DNA of 64,000 nt, from contig SUTU01000004.1 in NCBI GenBank assembly GCA_015152525.1, forward strand, positions 1 to 64,000, in the 5' to 3' direction. Positions 36,859 through 50,875 of this stretch are shown one piece after another. The notes under the pieces are model-generated. The model was not told the DNA's origin and did not search any database. It was given only the letters and a program-made list of their open reading frames with translations. The DNA is from Cyanobacteria bacterium SIG28. Its GTDB lineage: Bacteria; Cyanobacteriota; Vampirovibrionia; Gastranaerophilales; Gastranaerophilaceae. The position numbers were made by a program, and so were the translations under genes. Numbering within the stretch: the stretch's first letter is position 1; the number at the start of each line of letters is the position of its first letter.

Positions 36859-36887
36859 TTGATTTGAAATTTTGTGTTAGTTATAAT
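36859..36887 (+). promoter_or_regulatory. Promoter of the repeat array and tRNA-Lys
   Basis: TTGATT (36859-36864), a 17-nt spacer and TATAAT (36882-36887). The predicted start is near 36894, 20 nt before the first 123-bp unit. No terminator is seen until 37486, so one transcript of about 620 nt would cover four units and the tRNA. Confidence 0.75.
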
Positions 36888-36913
36888 TATTTTATTGATT
36901 GACAATTAAATAT

Positions 36914-37405
36914 GGGTGCGTGGCACTCTGCCGATGAAAATCCGAACCATTGAGGATTTTCAGAGAGGTAAGGTAGCGCCGGAGCGAAGCTCCCCGCTAA
37001 CGACTGCTACACATCAAGTTTGAAAATTAAATATATGGGTGCGTGGCACTCTGCCGATGAAAATCCGAACCGTTGAGGATTTTCAGAGAGGTAAGGTAGC
37101 GCCGGAGCAAAGCTCCTCGCTAACGACTGCTACACATCAAGTTTGAAAATTAAATATATGGGTGCGTGGCACTCTGCCGAAGAAAATCCGAACCGTTGAG
37201 GATTTTCAGAGAGGTAAGGTAGCGCCGGAGCAAAGCTCCTCGCTAACGACTGCTACACATCAAGTTTGAAAATTAAATATATGGGTGCGTGGCACTCTGC
37301 CGATGAAAATCCGAACCGTTGAGGATTTTCAGAGAGGTAAGGTAGCGCCGGAGCAAAGCTCCCCGCTAACGACTGCTACACATCAAGTTTGAAAATTAAA
37401 TATAT
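36914..37405 (+). repeat. Four 123-bp tandem units in register with tRNA-Lys; probable structured RNA array
   Basis: Units start at 36914, 37037, 37160 and 37283, each exactly 123 bp, and the tRNA begins at 37406 as the next step. Every unit opens with GGGTGCGTGGC, the first 11 nt of the tRNA, and contains GGTAGCGC, another stretch of it. Each unit can fold as a three-way junction: closing stem GTGGCA/TGCTAC, arm 2 GAAAATCC/GGATTTTC (extended by CTCT/AGAG), and arm 3 TAGCG-GGAGC/GCTCC-CGCTA. Almost all differences between copies fall in loops (A/G in the arm 2 loop, GAA/AAA in the arm 3 loop). No ORF. It does not match an RNA family I know. Confidence 0.85.
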
Positions 37406-37478
37406 GGGTGCGTGGCGCAGTCGGTAGCGCAGTTGACTCTTAATCAATTGGTCGTGGGTTCGAGTCCCACCACACCCA
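37406..37478 (+). tRNA. tRNA-Lys (anticodon CTT)
   Basis: A 73-nt cloverleaf: acceptor GGGTGCG/CACACCC with a C-A mismatch at pair 6-67, D-arm GCGC/GCGC, anticodon stem GTTGA/TCAAT with loop CTCTTAA giving anticodon CTT, T-arm GTGGG/CCCAC with TTCGAGT, discriminator A. CCA is not encoded. The acceptor mismatch is unusual and shares its 5' strand with the four upstream repeats. The gene is the last element of the 123-bp array. Confidence 0.92.
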
Positions 37479-37485
37479 TTTTATT

Positions 37486-37511
37486 AAGGTAGGCATAAGC
37501 CTACCTTTTTT
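37486..37511 (+). terminator. Terminator of the tRNA-Lys transcript
   Basis: AAGGTAGGC and GCCTACCTT with loop ATAA, running into a T-run, 7 nt past the tRNA. A strong intrinsic terminator for the whole array transcript. Confidence 0.92.
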
Positions 37512-37815: not shown

Positions 37816-38328
37816 ATGAATAGCTTGGTTGAAGTAAAAAATCTAATATATGAAGTCAGAGGGTATAAAGTCATGTTAGACTCTGATTTGGCAGATTTAT
37901 ATGAAGTTCCAACAAAGCGATTGAATGAAGCTGTAAAGCGTAATTTGGCACGTTTTCCTACACATTATATGTTTCAATTGACTAATGAAGAATTTGAAAG
38001 TTTGAGGTCGCAAATTGCGACCTCAAACAAAACTCGTGGCGGACGACGTTACATGCCATATGTTTTTACTGAACAAGGAGTAGCAATGCTTTCTACTGTT
38101 TTGAATTCAGAAAAAGCTATTCAAATAAATATCAAAATTATTGATACATTTGTACAGATGCGTCAATGGGCATTGGATAATAAAGAATTGACAAAAAGAG
38201 TTGCAGACATAGAAAACTATCTGATAAACTATGCAAAAGACAACAACAAAGAAATAGAAAAAATCTATGAAGCAATAGATTTACTAATGGACAGAACAAA
38301 ACCAAGAAAAATAGGATTTAATACATAA
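37816..38328 (+). CDS. ORF6N-domain DNA-binding protein
   Basis: A 170-aa protein with the phage/mobile-element ORF6N domain: RGYKVMLDSDLADLYEVPTK, RLNEAVKRNLARFPTHYMF, RGGRRYMPYVFTEQGVAMLS, TVLNSEKAIQINIKIIDTFV. A coiled-coil tail follows. The family is linked to regulation in phages and integrated elements. Inside the coding sequence, at 38000-38028, two perfect 14-bp arms (GTTTGAGGTCGCAA and complement) surround a single base, encoding SLRSQIATSN. There is no SD. TTGATT-17-TAAAAT ends 6 nt upstream of the ATG, consistent with a leaderless start. Confidence 0.88.
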   Translation: MNSLVEVKNLIYEVRGYKVMLDSDLADLYEVPTKRLNEAVKRNLARFPTHYMFQLTNEEFESLRSQIATSNKTRGGRRYMPYVFTEQGVAMLSTVLNSEKAIQINIKIIDTFVQMRQWALDNKELTKRVADIENYLINYAKDNNKEIEKIYEAIDLLMDRTKPRKIGFNT

Positions 38329-45721: not shown

Positions 45722-48700
45722 ATGAACATTAATTCAAATGAAATCATGTTGTTAAGAAGAAAAAATAACAACAATTTAAGAGCAGGTGAAACTGTATCAA
45801 CAACAGTTACAAATCCGGAAGCACCTGTATCAAATCCGGAAAATTCAATGAGAGCTTTAGATGCAGTTGCTCAAAACAATATTGCATTCCAAGCTGTTAA
45901 GATTCCGAACAAAATCGGTAATAAATTAAAACCTATGTTAACAGCTTTATTATTAGGTATTGGCGGTATGACACTTACTACATCTTGTGAACCTGAGCCA
46001 GATATTGAAGTAATTGAAATTCCAAGTAAAAATCCAACACAAATTACAGTTACACAAAGTATAGATTTTTCTTGGTTAGAAACTCTTATTGGTCAATATT
46101 TTGCCGGTAATCAAGAAATAATGCAAGATTTATTAGATGAATTACAAGATATTAAAAGTCAACTTGCAACTAATGCTGAACAACAAGCAGCAAGAGATCA
46201 ACAACTTTATGACGTATTGCTTCAAATATTGGATCAAAGTGTTGCAATTTATGACCAACAAGTTGCTAACGGTGCTAAATTAGATAGTATTGATGCTGCA
46301 ACTTTAGATCTAGTTGAACAACTTGCTGCATTAAGAGAAGCTCAACAATTATCTGATTTACAAGAACAACAAAGAGATGAAAAATTATTTGGAACAATTT
46401 CTTTAATTTTAACAAGAACAGAAGAAGGTAATGCTAAGTTAGCTGAAATCAATGCAAAAATAGAAGAAAACGGTTTAACAGTTTCTGAGGCTTTAGATTT
46501 AGCACTAGACTACTTGAAAAACATTGATAAAAACGTTCAAGATATTGAAACTATTGTTACTAATATTGATAAATCATTAGAAGAATTTAGAAATGGTAAT
46601 GCCGAAGCTTTAGGTCAAATTGTAAAAGAAATTCAAACAGCAAGAGAAGAAAATGCACAACATGCAGATGACCAAGCACAACGTGATTCAGTATTAATGG
46701 AAAAAGTTATCGAAGTAATCGGTGCAGTAGGTGAAAATACTGATAAAGTAAGCGTAGTAGATAAATCAGTTCAAGAATTGATAGACGAAGTAGTAGCTCT
46801 AAGAGATAGCCAAGAAATCAGTGCAGCAGAAGAAGCAGCAAGAGATGAAAAATTGTATACAAAACTTCTTGTATTGATTAATACAACAAAAGAAGGCAAC
46901 GCTCTAATGTCTACAATCAGTGCTCAAATAGATTCACACGCAATAACATTTGGTCAAGCAGTTGATAAAATGTTAGACTACTTGAAAAACATTGACCAAA
47001 ATGTTCAAGATATCGAAAACATTGTTACAAACATCGACAAATCATTAACAGAGTTCAAAAACGGTAATATGGCAGCATTGGCTCAAATTGTAACAGAAAT
47101 CCAAACTGTAAGAGCAGAAAATGCACAACATGCAGATGAACAAGCACAACGTGATTCAGTATTAATGGAAAAAGTTATCGAAGTAATCGATGCAGTAGGT
47201 GAAAATACTGATAAAGTAAGCGTAGTAGATAAATCAGTTCAAGAATTGATAGACGAAGTAGTAGCTCTAAGAGATAGCCAAGAAATCAGTGCAGCAGAAG
47301 AAGCAGCAAGAGATGAAAAATTGTATACAAAACTTCTTGTATTGATTAATACAACAAAAGAAGGCAACGCTCTAATGTCTACAATCAGTGCTCAAATAGA
47401 TTCACACGCAATAACATTTGGTCAAGCAGTTGATAAAATGTTAGACTACTTGAAAAACATTGACCAAAATGTTCAAGATATCGAAAACATTGTTACAAAC
47501 ATCGACAAATCATTAACAGAGTTCAAAAACGGTAATATGGCAGCATTGGCTCAAATTGTAACAGAAATCCAAACTGTAAGAGCAGAAAATGCACAACATG
47601 CAGATGAACAAGCACAACGTGATTCAGTATTAATGGAAAAAGTTATCGAAGTAATCGATGCAGTAGGTGAAAATACTGATAAAGTAAGCGTAGTAGATAA
47701 ATCAGTTCAAGAATTGATAGACGAAGTAGTAGCTCTAAGAGATAGCCAAGAAATCAGTGCAGCAGAAGAAGCAGCAAGAGATGAAAAATTGTATACAAAA
47801 CTTCTTGTATTGATTAATACAACAAAAGAAGGCAACGCTCTAATGTCTACAATCAGTGCTCAAATAGATTCACACGCAATAACATTTGGTCAAGCAGTTG
47901 ATAAAATGTTAGACTACTTGAAAAACATTGACCAAAATGTTCAAGATATCGAAAACATTGTTACAAACATCGACAAATCATTAACAGAGTTCAAAAACGG
48001 TAATATGGCAGCATTGGCTCAAATTGTAACAGAAATCCAAACTGTAAGAGCAGAAAATGCACAACATGCAGATGAACAAGCACAACGTGATTCAGTATTA
48101 ATGGAAAAAGTTATCGAAGTAATCGATGCAGTAGGTGAAAATACTGATAAAGTAAGCGTAGTAGATAAATCAGTTCAAGAATTGATAGACGAAGTAGTAG
48201 CTCTAAGAGATAGCCAAGAAATCAGTGCAGCAGAAGAAGCAGCAAGAGATGAAAAATTGTATACAAAACTTCTTGTATTGATTAATACAACAAAAGAAGG
48301 CAACGCTCTAATGTCTACAATCAGTGCTCAAATAGATTCACACGCAATAACATTTGGTCAAGCAGTTGATAAAATGTTAGACTACTTGAAAAACATTGAC
48401 CAAAATGTTCAAGATATCGAAAACATCGTTACAAACATCGACAAATCATTAACAGAGTTCAAAAACGGTAATATGGCAGCATTGGCTCAAATTGTAACAG
48501 AAATCCAAACTGTAAGAGCAGAAAATGCACAACATGCAGATGACCAAGCACAACGTGATTCAGTATTGATGGAAAAAGTTGTCGAAGTAATCGATGCAGT
48601 AGGTAAAAACACTGATAAAGTAAGCGTAGTAGATAAATCAGTTCAAGAATTGATTGACGAAGTGGTTGCTTTAAGAGATAGCCAAGAGCTAAGTGCAGCA

Positions 48701-50875
48701 GAAGAAGCAGCAAGAGATGAAAAATTATATACAAAACTTCTTGTATTGATTAATACAACTGCTGAAGGTAACGCTCTAATGTCTACAATCAGTGCTCAAA
48801 TAGATTCACACGCAATGACATTTGGTCAAGCAGTTGATAAAATGTTAGATTTCTTGAAAAACATTGACCAAAACGTTCAAGATATCGAAGCTAATACTGA
48901 AAAAATTCTTTCTGAATTACAAGCGTTCCACGCTGATTATTTAGCAGGCAGAAAAGCAATCGGTGATGCTTTAGGTAAATTAATTGAACAAGGCATTATT
49001 AACAAAGAAGCTATGAAAACATTGAATGAAAATGTAATCATTGTTAAAGATAATATTAAAGATATTAATAAAACAACAACTGATTTATTAGAAGAAGTTC
49101 AAGATCCGGCAAGATTCAACAAATTGATAGCAACTCTTGATAATATGTCAGCATCACAAAAAGCAATGTTTGAAATGTTACACATTGATATCAATGACTT
49201 AAAAGAAACCGCTTCAAAAGATATTCATAAAGCTATAACTATTGTTACAGGTGCTATTAAAAACTTCCAATCACAAGAGTTAGCTCAAGATAAAGTTGAA
49301 GCAGAACAATTAGATCAAATCAGCCAAAAATTAGATGTTGTTCAAAAATTCCCTGAAATAATAACTCAAGGACTTGAAAATGCTACAGATAAATTATCTG
49401 AAGAAATGAAGAATAACACAACTAATGTAACAAATTCAATTAATGTAGTTCAACAACAATTAGATACAGTTATTAAAAAACTTGAAGATATTGCTGTTCA
49501 ATTCGGTAAATTCGCAAAAGAATCAATGGGCTATAACAAAGCAATGTTAAGTACTCAAAATGCGTTGTTAAAAGAAGTTATCGGAATGAACAGAGATATT
49601 AATGTATTAATCGCACTTCAAAAAGATAACAATGCTAATGTTGCTAAATTGAAATCAATGATTCCTACTATCATTACTCAATTAAATACATTGATTGAAA
49701 CAACTAACAAACAGTTGACAATGAATGATTTAAAAACAATTAGCGAAGATGCTTACAACAAGTTCACAGCTTTAATTGAAGAATACAATTTCGATAATCT
49801 TCCTGGTGATGTTCAAACAATTAAAGATTATGTTTCAGCTTTCGAAAAACATATCGTTAATGTTGATAACAATACAACACACATTGCTAAACTTCTTGAA
49901 ACTTGGCCAATCGTTGGTGAGTTCCCAGGCTTAACAAGCGAAGAACTTGATGCAGCATTAGGTCGCTTAACAGTTGCTTTAGATAAAGATAAAAATGATA
50001 TCACTGCTGAACTTAAAGAAGTTCAACAACAATTATCAAAATTACAAAAATCAATTGATAACATGGCAGCTAATATCGCAAAATATACTAAGATTTCAAC
50101 AGATTATCAAGTTAAATTCGATAGATACTTCCAATCTGCATTGAAGAAAATGGGTCATTATGAATACTTAATGAACTCTATCTTAAGTGCACAAAATAAC
50201 GCAAGTGTAAGTATCGCAAACGTTGAAGCAGCTATGAAAGAAGTTCTTGCAGGTTTGAAAGCTCTAGTAGCAGCAAGTGAAAACCAATTAACATTTGCTG
50301 ACTTGAAAGAACTTAATGCAGAAGCTTATGCTAACTTGAACGCATTGTTAGAAGCTTACAATATCGATAATATTGCCGGCGATGTTCAAACAATTAAAGA
50401 TTATGTTTCAATTATCGAAGGTAAAATGGGTCAAGATGTTGATAACAGTGAAGCTCTAGGTACTATAACTAAGCAATTGAGCATACTAATCAATTATGCA
50501 GCTCTAGATAGAAGTGATTTAGAAGCAGCAATTGAAAAAGTTGTAGCAGCTATTGATTCAAATGCTGATGATCTTTCAGCTGAAATTCAAGCTCTTAAAA
50601 ACGCTGTATGTTCAAAAATAGACGGTTTAGCTGGTCAACTTGGTGCTATCGTAGATTTGATTAAAAACTTAGATAGTAATCACGGAACTAACCCTGATTA
50701 TTCAGCTCAAATCCAAGAAATTAAGAATTTCTTAGCTTCATTGAATGAAGAAGTTCTTAAAAACAATCAATTGATGCAAAAAATCTATGACAGAATCGCT
50801 GAGTTCGAACACAATTGTAATTGTGGAAAATCTGATGAATCAATCAAAGGTGATTTAGACGATATTTTAGGATAA
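45722..50875 (+). CDS. Giant repetitive coiled-coil lipoprotein-like protein
   Basis: A 1717-aa Glu/Gln/Asn-rich helical protein. Residues 1-60 are polar and include NIAFQAVK, like the N-terminal motif at 5.2-6.8 kb. A hydrophobic stretch (KPMLTALLLGIGGMTLTTSC, residues 70-89) ends in a lipobox-like TTSC at Cys89, giving a signal with an unusually long lead. From about residue 155, 156-residue repeats follow (QEISAAEEAARDEKLYTKLL..., AQHADEQAQRDSVLMEKVIE...), four of them near-identical at DNA level. The C-terminal third has a second repeat (GDVQTIKDYVS twice) and ends in a Cys-containing tail (NCNCGKSDES). Likely a surface-anchored rod or adhesin; function unknown. Confidence 0.8.
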   Translation: MNINSNEIMLLRRKNNNNLRAGETVSTTVTNPEAPVSNPENSMRALDAVAQNNIAFQAVKIPNKIGNKLKPMLTALLLGIGGMTLTTSCEPEPDIEVIEIPSKNPTQITVTQSIDFSWLETLIGQYFAGNQEIMQDLLDELQDIKSQLATNAEQQAARDQQLYDVLLQILDQSVAIYDQQVANGAKLDSIDAATLDLVEQLAALREAQQLSDLQEQQRDEKLFGTISLILTRTEEGNAKLAEINAKIEENGLTVSEALDLALDYLKNIDKNVQDIETIVTNIDKSLEEFRNGNAEALGQIVKEIQTAREENAQHADDQAQRDSVLMEKVIEVIGAVGENTDKVSVVDKSVQELIDEVVALRDSQEISAAEEAARDEKLYTKLLVLINTTKEGNALMSTISAQIDSHAITFGQAVDKMLDYLKNIDQNVQDIENIVTNIDKSLTEFKNGNMAALAQIVTEIQTVRAENAQHADEQAQRDSVLMEKVIEVIDAVGENTDKVSVVDKSVQELIDEVVALRDSQEISAAEEAARDEKLYTKLLVLINTTKEGNALMSTISAQIDSHAITFGQAVDKMLDYLKNIDQNVQDIENIVTNIDKSLTEFKNGNMAALAQIVTEIQTVRAENAQHADEQAQRDSVLMEKVIEVIDAVGENTDKVSVVDKSVQELIDEVVALRDSQEISAAEEAARDEKLYTKLLVLINTTKEGNALMSTISAQIDSHAITFGQAVDKMLDYLKNIDQNVQDIENIVTNIDKSLTEFKNGNMAALAQIVTEIQTVRAENAQHADEQAQRDSVLMEKVIEVIDAVGENTDKVSVVDKSVQELIDEVVALRDSQEISAAEEAARDEKLYTKLLVLINTTKEGNALMSTISAQIDSHAITFGQAVDKMLDYLKNIDQNVQDIENIVTNIDKSLTEFKNGNMAALAQIVTEIQTVRAENAQHADDQAQRDSVLMEKVVEVIDAVGKNTDKVSVVDKSVQELIDEVVALRDSQELSAAEEAARDEKLYTKLLVLINTTAEGNALMSTISAQIDSHAMTFGQAVDKMLDFLKNIDQNVQDIEANTEKILSELQAFHADYLAGRKAIGDALGKLIEQGIINKEAMKTLNENVIIVKDNIKDINKTTTDLLEEVQDPARFNKLIATLDNMSASQKAMFEMLHIDINDLKETASKDIHKAITIVTGAIKNFQSQELAQDKVEAEQLDQISQKLDVVQKFPEIITQGLENATDKLSEEMKNNTTNVTNSINVVQQQLDTVIKKLEDIAVQFGKFAKESMGYNKAMLSTQNALLKEVIGMNRDINVLIALQKDNNANVAKLKSMIPTIITQLNTLIETTNKQLTMNDLKTISEDAYNKFTALIEEYNFDNLPGDVQTIKDYVSAFEKHIVNVDNNTTHIAKLLETWPIVGEFPGLTSEELDAALGRLTVALDKDKNDITAELKEVQQQLSKLQKSIDNMAANIAKYTKISTDYQVKFDRYFQSALKKMGHYEYLMNSILSAQNNASVSIANVEAAMKEVLAGLKALVAASENQLTFADLKELNAEAYANLNALLEAYNIDNIAGDVQTIKDYVSIIEGKMGQDVDNSEALGTITKQLSILINYAALDRSDLEAAIEKVVAAIDSNADDLSAEIQALKNAVCSKIDGLAGQLGAIVDLIKNLDSNHGTNPDYSAQIQEIKNFLASLNEEVLKNNQLMQKIYDRIAEFEHNCNCGKSDESIKGDLDDILG
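46185..48890 (+). repeat. 468-bp in-frame tandem repeats inside the giant protein gene
   Basis: Units of 468 bp (156 codons) begin near 46185 (divergent), 46653, 47121, 47589, 48057 and 48525 (partial). The middle copies differ by only a few bases, for example GATGAC versus GATGAA at the unit start and one C/T change near 48427. Such identity indicates recent duplication or gene conversion and makes copy number prone to change and to assembly error. Confidence 0.95.

Follow-up and report, generated by a model that had tools for sequence, protein, structure and literature searches.

A tandem array of tRNA-Lys 5' ends with a covarying hairpin core in a Gastranaerophilales genome may belong to a lineage-wide family of tRNA-end repeats

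Few loci of a genome are as conserved as its tRNA genes, and a leader of several hundred bases built from tRNA-derived decoys is unexpected at such a gene. A leader of this kind precedes tRNA-Lys(CTT) in the genome of Cyanobacteria bacterium SIG28 (Gastranaerophilales, an order of gut bacteria; assembly GCA_015152525.1), of which we analyzed positions 1 to 64,000 of contig SUTU01000004.1, forward strand (hereafter the window). An earlier note on this DNA described four structured units in front of the tRNA and read them as copies of a small RNA. What, then, is the array? Beyond that description, we find that the units recur at many tRNAs, that mirror images of them stand at tRNA 3' ends and that the 3' strand of the unit is complementary to the D-arm of the intact tRNA. 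A proliferating repeat of tRNA ends is the best-supported reading; of the alternatives, a regulatory switch would be the most interesting.

Results

Tandem Repeats Finder (TRF) assigns the array a period of 123, 4.2 copies, a 97% match and a score of 980. The 123-bp step from the units at 36914, 37037, 37160 and 37283 (together 36914-37405) runs exactly into the intact tRNA-Lys(CTT) at 37406, in the register that the earlier note had given; the count of four is read from a short-read draft assembly of 26 contigs, and the exact number rests on that assembly. Every unit opens with the first 11 nt of tRNA-Lys (GGGTGCGTGGC) and also holds GGTAGCGC, and a leader motif of the TTGAAAATTAAATA type is repeated before each unit and before the tRNA. 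The proposed three-way junction is likewise what RNAfold predicts for the 123-nt units (-38.6 to -41.3 kcal/mol; z = -2.5 to -3.9 relative to dinucleotide shuffles), with the stem closed by TGCTAC and CATC of the antisense strand. Within this strand, CGACTGC (37001-37007 in unit 1, 37370-37376 in unit 4) is complementary to GCAGTCG in the D-arm of tRNA-Lys (37417-37423), a heptamer missing from unit 1's own copy of the tRNA 5' end. That the copies differ mainly in loops is true but says little, given that the four copies differ at few positions only. The single promoter and single terminator ascribed to the set exist as consensus matches, but such matches occur close to chance level (5 promoter-like matches found versus 2.4 expected and 2 terminator-like versus 1.3).

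In a survey of 30 of the 34 tRNA loci of the same genome, nine have their own 5' end partially copied upstream (Lys-CTT, two Met, Gly-TCC, Asp, Asn, Arg-ACG, Ile and Leu-TAG) and six have 3'-end copies downstream. A search of this genome located a fifth copy on another contig, where tRNA-Met is preceded by two units. Each of them starts with the leader and 5' end of its own tRNA-Met and not with those of tRNA-Lys, and an identical 44-nt core is present in the Lys and Met arrays. The core pattern (ACTCTGCC-stem-GAGAGG) also finds two units ahead of tRNA-Leu(TAG) and one lone copy. The three 5' units at tRNA-Gly(TCC) (G000:C21:18500-20500) are 133 bp long, and their D-loop holds a different insert. 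The same arrangement at other tRNAs and in other genomes supports the origin suggested in the earlier note, namely tRNA duplication with insertion into the D-arm.

Several of these loci have further repeats. Downstream of tRNA-Gly(TCC), a second 3'-end copy and a terminator lie around the repeat GAGCAGAGTGCGAAGTG...GCAAAACACGAAGGCACG, and cores are inserted into copies of this repeat in another genome (G020). An initiator-type tRNA-Met, CGCGGGATGG (G000:C7:77607-77680), is accompanied by three extra 3'-end copies at +125, +262 and +398. In unit 1 of a tRNA-Met array (G000:C19) the core is split by an interruption of about 80 nt. Part of this interruption, GGGGTAAAT, recurs in the vicinity of other arrays, which suggests nested small repeats.

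Across genomes, unit anatomy was read from 76 unit/tRNA pairs covering 19 isoacceptors. A typical unit begins with the first ~11-19 nt of the neighbouring tRNA, carries the core in the D-arm and often retains the remaining D-arm; a short hairpin follows, often with a GNA or GNRA loop, and then the leader (often TTGAAAATTAAATA) and the intact tRNA. Many units, though not all, also have a strand complementary to the tRNA D-arm. The antisense score of the sequence after the core averages 17.0 against the unit's own tRNA, 11.7 against other tRNAs and 9.9 against shuffled sequence, and it is at least 14 in 43 of 73 units versus 6% of shuffles. Where the sense copy within a unit has lost positions, the antisense strand still fits the intact tRNA at 181 of 188 positions (38 units), a count taken from a local aligner, which favours matches. 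The window pair CGACTGC/GCAGTCG is matched in relatives by CAACTGC pairing with GCAGTTG. Insertion of the core usually replaces a few target bases and leaves no clean duplication. In the copies read, the place of the core in the D-arm at one tRNA end is equivalent to its place in the T-arm at the other, and from either end the core points inward.

The core itself covaries across relatives, a check that the earlier note had named. Among 47 distinct cores of equal length, 105 stem cells are changed on both sides, compared with 28.9 in shuffles, and the covariation score is 0.369 versus 0.108 (reached in 0 of 500 shuffles), as expected of a structured RNA or DNA element under selection. A wider set of 180 distinct cores contains 1718 Watson-Crick stem cells; several positions have all four pair types, and a G.G mismatch recurs in the stem. 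The surplus of GU (41) over AC (16) in the core is a suggestive, though not independent, sign of selection at the RNA level; outside the core there is no GU excess (96 versus 88 pairs) that would argue for such selection. A kink-turn consists of a bulge followed by G.A and A.G pairs (PMC3651934). One possible reading of the core is CUC-UGCC-GA-stem ... stem-GA-GAG, and every match to the pattern has the tandem GA, but its bulge would be 4 nt and that of a kink-turn is 3, and the conservation of the GA pairs is partly circular, as they belong to the search pattern. The tandem GA on each side could bend the core in a kink-turn-like manner.

The core is confined to one lineage in the collections searched. 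The pattern occurs in all 58 genomes of the genus, for which a reversed control pattern gave 0 matches, in 168 of 192 genomes of the order and in 0 of 161 from the rest of the phylum. A stricter pattern run over 84,980 species genomes returned 39 loci, nearly all in metagenome-assembled genomes (MAGs) labelled Gastranaerophilales, cyanobacterium or gut/rumen bacterium, with one record titled Acinetobacter. Copies per genome range from 0 to 86, counting nested and overlapping matches, and many of the cores in the genome with the highest number belong to large, structured repeats that are dispersed away from tRNAs. Nine genomes together gave 81 core copies, of which 40 precede an intact tRNA on the same strand and 8 occur in mirror-image units at tRNA 3' ends, antisense to the tRNA. 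At tRNA-Glu and tRNA-Phe, for example, such units read inward from the terminator side. The core also occurs inside a fragment that, judged by eye, resembles the reverse complement of 5S rRNA.

Other repeats also carry the core. In one genome (G080), it replaces one arm of the hairpin repeat CCCTCCCCTTGAGGGAGGGTCGAAATC...GATTTCGGGGTGGGG in several copies; in another (G145), a dispersed structured repeat of ~250 nt, GTCTGAGTGGGACCTCGCTTG...GGGGTCAGTTGACTATATGAAA, is present in many copies with one or two cores inside. An identity of the latter with HEARO/omega-RNA was rejected for lack of an Rfam match. A viral source of the core was likewise rejected: among the matches listed in viral contigs most are chance hits and two have a good stem.

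Orthologous tRNA-Lys loci exist in occupied and empty form. Of 29 readable relatives, 22 carry units and 7 have none, and at least two different hairpin inserts occur at tRNA-Lys across the relatives. In an empty genome (G162) and an occupied one (G022) the same leader, ...TGTTGAAAATAGAATAT|GGG, stands directly before the tRNA or the unit, respectively. The position of the units downstream of a promoter, as put forward in the earlier note, finds support in this common leader and in the promoter-like sequence that also precedes the first unit in relatives. A further insert class, AAGGACTCC-stem-GGATGGGAGG, is rare by pattern search (1 of 37 genomes); this insert or close variants of it are found at tRNA-Lys in several species.

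Searched against Rfam 15 at gathering thresholds, the array matches only at tRNA-Lys; the remaining matches at E<=10 are weak and far under the cut-offs of their families. The units do not match the tRNA cloverleaf model RF00005 even at E<=10, only 37406-37478 doing so. None of the dispersed copies matches a described Rfam 15 family, and we found no account of tRNA-linked repeats of this kind in the open-access literature. The repeat family is apparently undescribed so far.

The features of the array are collected in Table 1. An ORF6N-domain protein (PF10543), a domain frequent in phage antirepressors, is encoded 3' of the array (window 37816-38325), and immediately upstream lies a DUF486 (DMT_6) gene. 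Elsewhere in the window, a coding tandem repeat (46506-48889; 468 bp, 5.1 copies, 97% match) lies within an open reading frame of 1717 aa (45722-50875).

Table 1 Features of the tRNA-Lys(CTT) array, in window positions
Feature	Position	Strand	Basis
Promoter-like site TTGATT-17-TATAAT, 5' of array	36859-36887	+	Consensus scan, 10/12 matches; relatives also promoter-like before first unit
Leader motif TTGACAATTAAATAT ahead of unit 1	36899-36913	+	Sequence; same motif at other tRNAs
Unit 1: partial tRNA-Lys 5' copy, core, arm, antisense strand, leader	36914-37036	+	Sequence, TRF, fold
Hairpin core, unit 1 (ACTCTGCCGA-stem-GAGAGG)	36925-36968	+	Pattern search; covariation
GGTAGCGC, remnant of tRNA D-arm 3' half, unit 1; recurs at +123 steps	36972-36979	+	Sequence; same layout at other tRNAs
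Arm hairpin GGAGC-GAA-GCTCC, unit 1; recurs at +123 steps	36980-36993	+	RNAfold
Antisense strand, unit 1; recurs at +123 steps	36995-37015	+	Sequence, fold, antisense scoring
Unit 2	37037-37159	+	Sequence, TRF, fold
Unit 3	37160-37282	+	Sequence, TRF, fold
Unit 4	37283-37405	+	Sequence, TRF, fold
Hairpin cores, units 2-4	37048-37091, 37171-37214, 37294-37337	+	Pattern search
Intact tRNA-Lys(CTT)	37406-37478	+	Rfam RF00005, 70.4 bits; ARAGORN
Intrinsic-terminator-like hairpin 3' of tRNA-Lys	37486-37507	+	Consensus scan

Discussion

Mirror-image units at tRNA 3' ends, empty and occupied tRNA-Lys loci and differing inserts together favour a repeat that acts at the DNA level. We give about even credence to the full form of this reading, in which the array belongs to a proliferating family of palindromic repeats that spans the lineage, is built from tRNA-gene ends and is carried passively in leaders. 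It would be akin to repetitive extragenic palindromic (REP) sequences or miniature inverted-repeat transposable elements (MITEs). Such units would originate by duplication and inverted duplication of a tRNA end, in a template-switch-like event; in addition, a non-autonomous hairpin element that proliferates would be inserted or exchanged. Each unit would be tolerated because an intact tRNA remains behind it, tandem copies would then arise through duplication, and the units, lying downstream of the promoter, would probably be transcribed as a structured leader of pre-tRNA-Lys. MITEs are defined by terminal inverted repeats, a target-site duplication and a related autonomous element. In the units, the two D-arm strands, sense and antisense, act as inverted repeats and the leader occurs twice, but an autonomous partner was not found and the unit boundaries vary.

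Several observations weigh against a passive repeat. No cognate enzyme was found: genes of the Y1/REP-associated tyrosine transposase (RAYT) type are present in 19 of 32 genomes, but the core is near only 2 of 30 RAYT loci, and we rejected the RAYT/Y1 transposase as mobiliser since cores do not flank these loci. Neither a clean target-site duplication nor a clean element boundary was found. Strong conservation of the core, together with the antisense match at positions lost from the sense copy, suggests selection. The sense strand also folds better than the antisense strand in 72 of 74 units, an advantage that shrinks to 41 of 58 units once the core is removed.

A regulatory leader is an alternative that we regard as possible but rather unlikely. 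The chain of sense strand, core, antisense strand, leader and next sense strand (finally the tRNA) would fold in two registers and so tune the maturation of tRNA-Lys. Closed units would free the tRNA; a shift of register would let the last antisense strand trap the real D-arm, and a ligand or protein bound to the conserved core would bias the choice. The fit of the antisense strand to the real tRNA, the matched heptamers in the window and its relatives and the conserved, covarying core agree with this model, as does the predicted minimum free energy structure of unit 4 plus tRNA, which is the shifted fold. However, seven of the 29 relatives lack units at tRNA-Lys, many units (Leu-TAG, some Val and Pro) have no antisense strand and the core is antisense to the tRNA in 3'-side units. 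In joint folding, cognate units stand out little from shuffled ones (54/74 versus 36/74), and we discarded it as proof of a switch because shuffled units cross-pair nearly as much.

An unlikely variant of the mobile reading is a site-specific element whose candidate enzyme would recognise tRNA D-arm and T-arm hairpins, as DNA cruciforms or single strands, and insert cores reading inward. The inward orientation at equivalent positions of both tRNA ends is consistent with such an enzyme, as are the cores in the 5S rRNA-like fragment and in hairpin repeats, but no linked enzyme gene was found, and the exchange of a few target bases without clean duplication argues against it. Doubtful to a greater degree is the broader proposal of a new class of cis-acting RNA switch, with tandem 5'-end decoys, a sensor hairpin and a D-arm-trapping antisense strand controlling tRNA output across the order.

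The polycistronic precursor of the earlier note, from which RNase P would release four copies of a functional small RNA by cleavage at their tRNA-like 5' ends, now appears improbable. It accords with the 5' end common to unit and tRNA, the promoter ahead, the terminator behind and the stable fold. The units, however, lack a T-arm and a conserved RCCA and match neither tRNA nor any other Rfam family, which, as read from the sequence, speaks against release by RNase P. Nor does a locus-specific RNA sit well with a core that is a dispersed repeat in many unrelated contexts, or with units that vary and are dispensable between species, tRNA-Lys included. An assembly artefact or chance repeat is barely credible even though this is a draft genome and the arrays of relatives often lie at contig ends, given that single-nucleotide polymorphisms tell the four units apart, so that the array is not one unit multiplied by the assembler, and that the same architecture appears in independent genomes.

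If the repeat is selfish, its family has multiplied within the transcription units of tRNAs throughout an order while sparing the tRNA, and it hints at how small palindromes find safe sites. If it is regulatory, it offers a new control of single tRNA species. Either way, the many natural pairs of empty and occupied loci can serve to study how structured leaders affect tRNA maturation.

Among known systems, a comparable layout is that of RtT RNA and the tyrT repeats of Escherichia coli (Rfam RF00391), in which repeats adjoin a tRNA and each holds one tRNA end (the 3' end in tyrT). Tandem units with one end of the adjacent tRNA are likewise what we find, with the window array at the end opposite to tyrT; the 3'-side copies at Gly, fMet, Gln and other tRNAs resemble the tyrT layout itself. 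In contrast to tyrT, the repeats described here involve mainly the 5' end, many different tRNAs and a conserved core with an antisense D-arm strand, and the RF00391 model finds nothing in the array at E<=10. REP sequences and bacterial interspersed mosaic elements (BIMEs) with their RAYT (TnpA-REP) are similar as short, multi-copy, non-coding hairpin repeats restricted to a lineage, and RAYT-type Y1 genes are present here too, but the cores are concentrated in tRNA-derived units and do not flank those genes. Rickettsia palindromic elements and similar selfish palindromes are small, proliferating and found in RNA or coding genes. The likeness, drawn by description, lies in small size and proliferation; those elements belong to an unrelated lineage and are inserted in genes, whereas the repeats of Gastranaerophilales occupy duplicated tRNA ends and the intact gene is kept.
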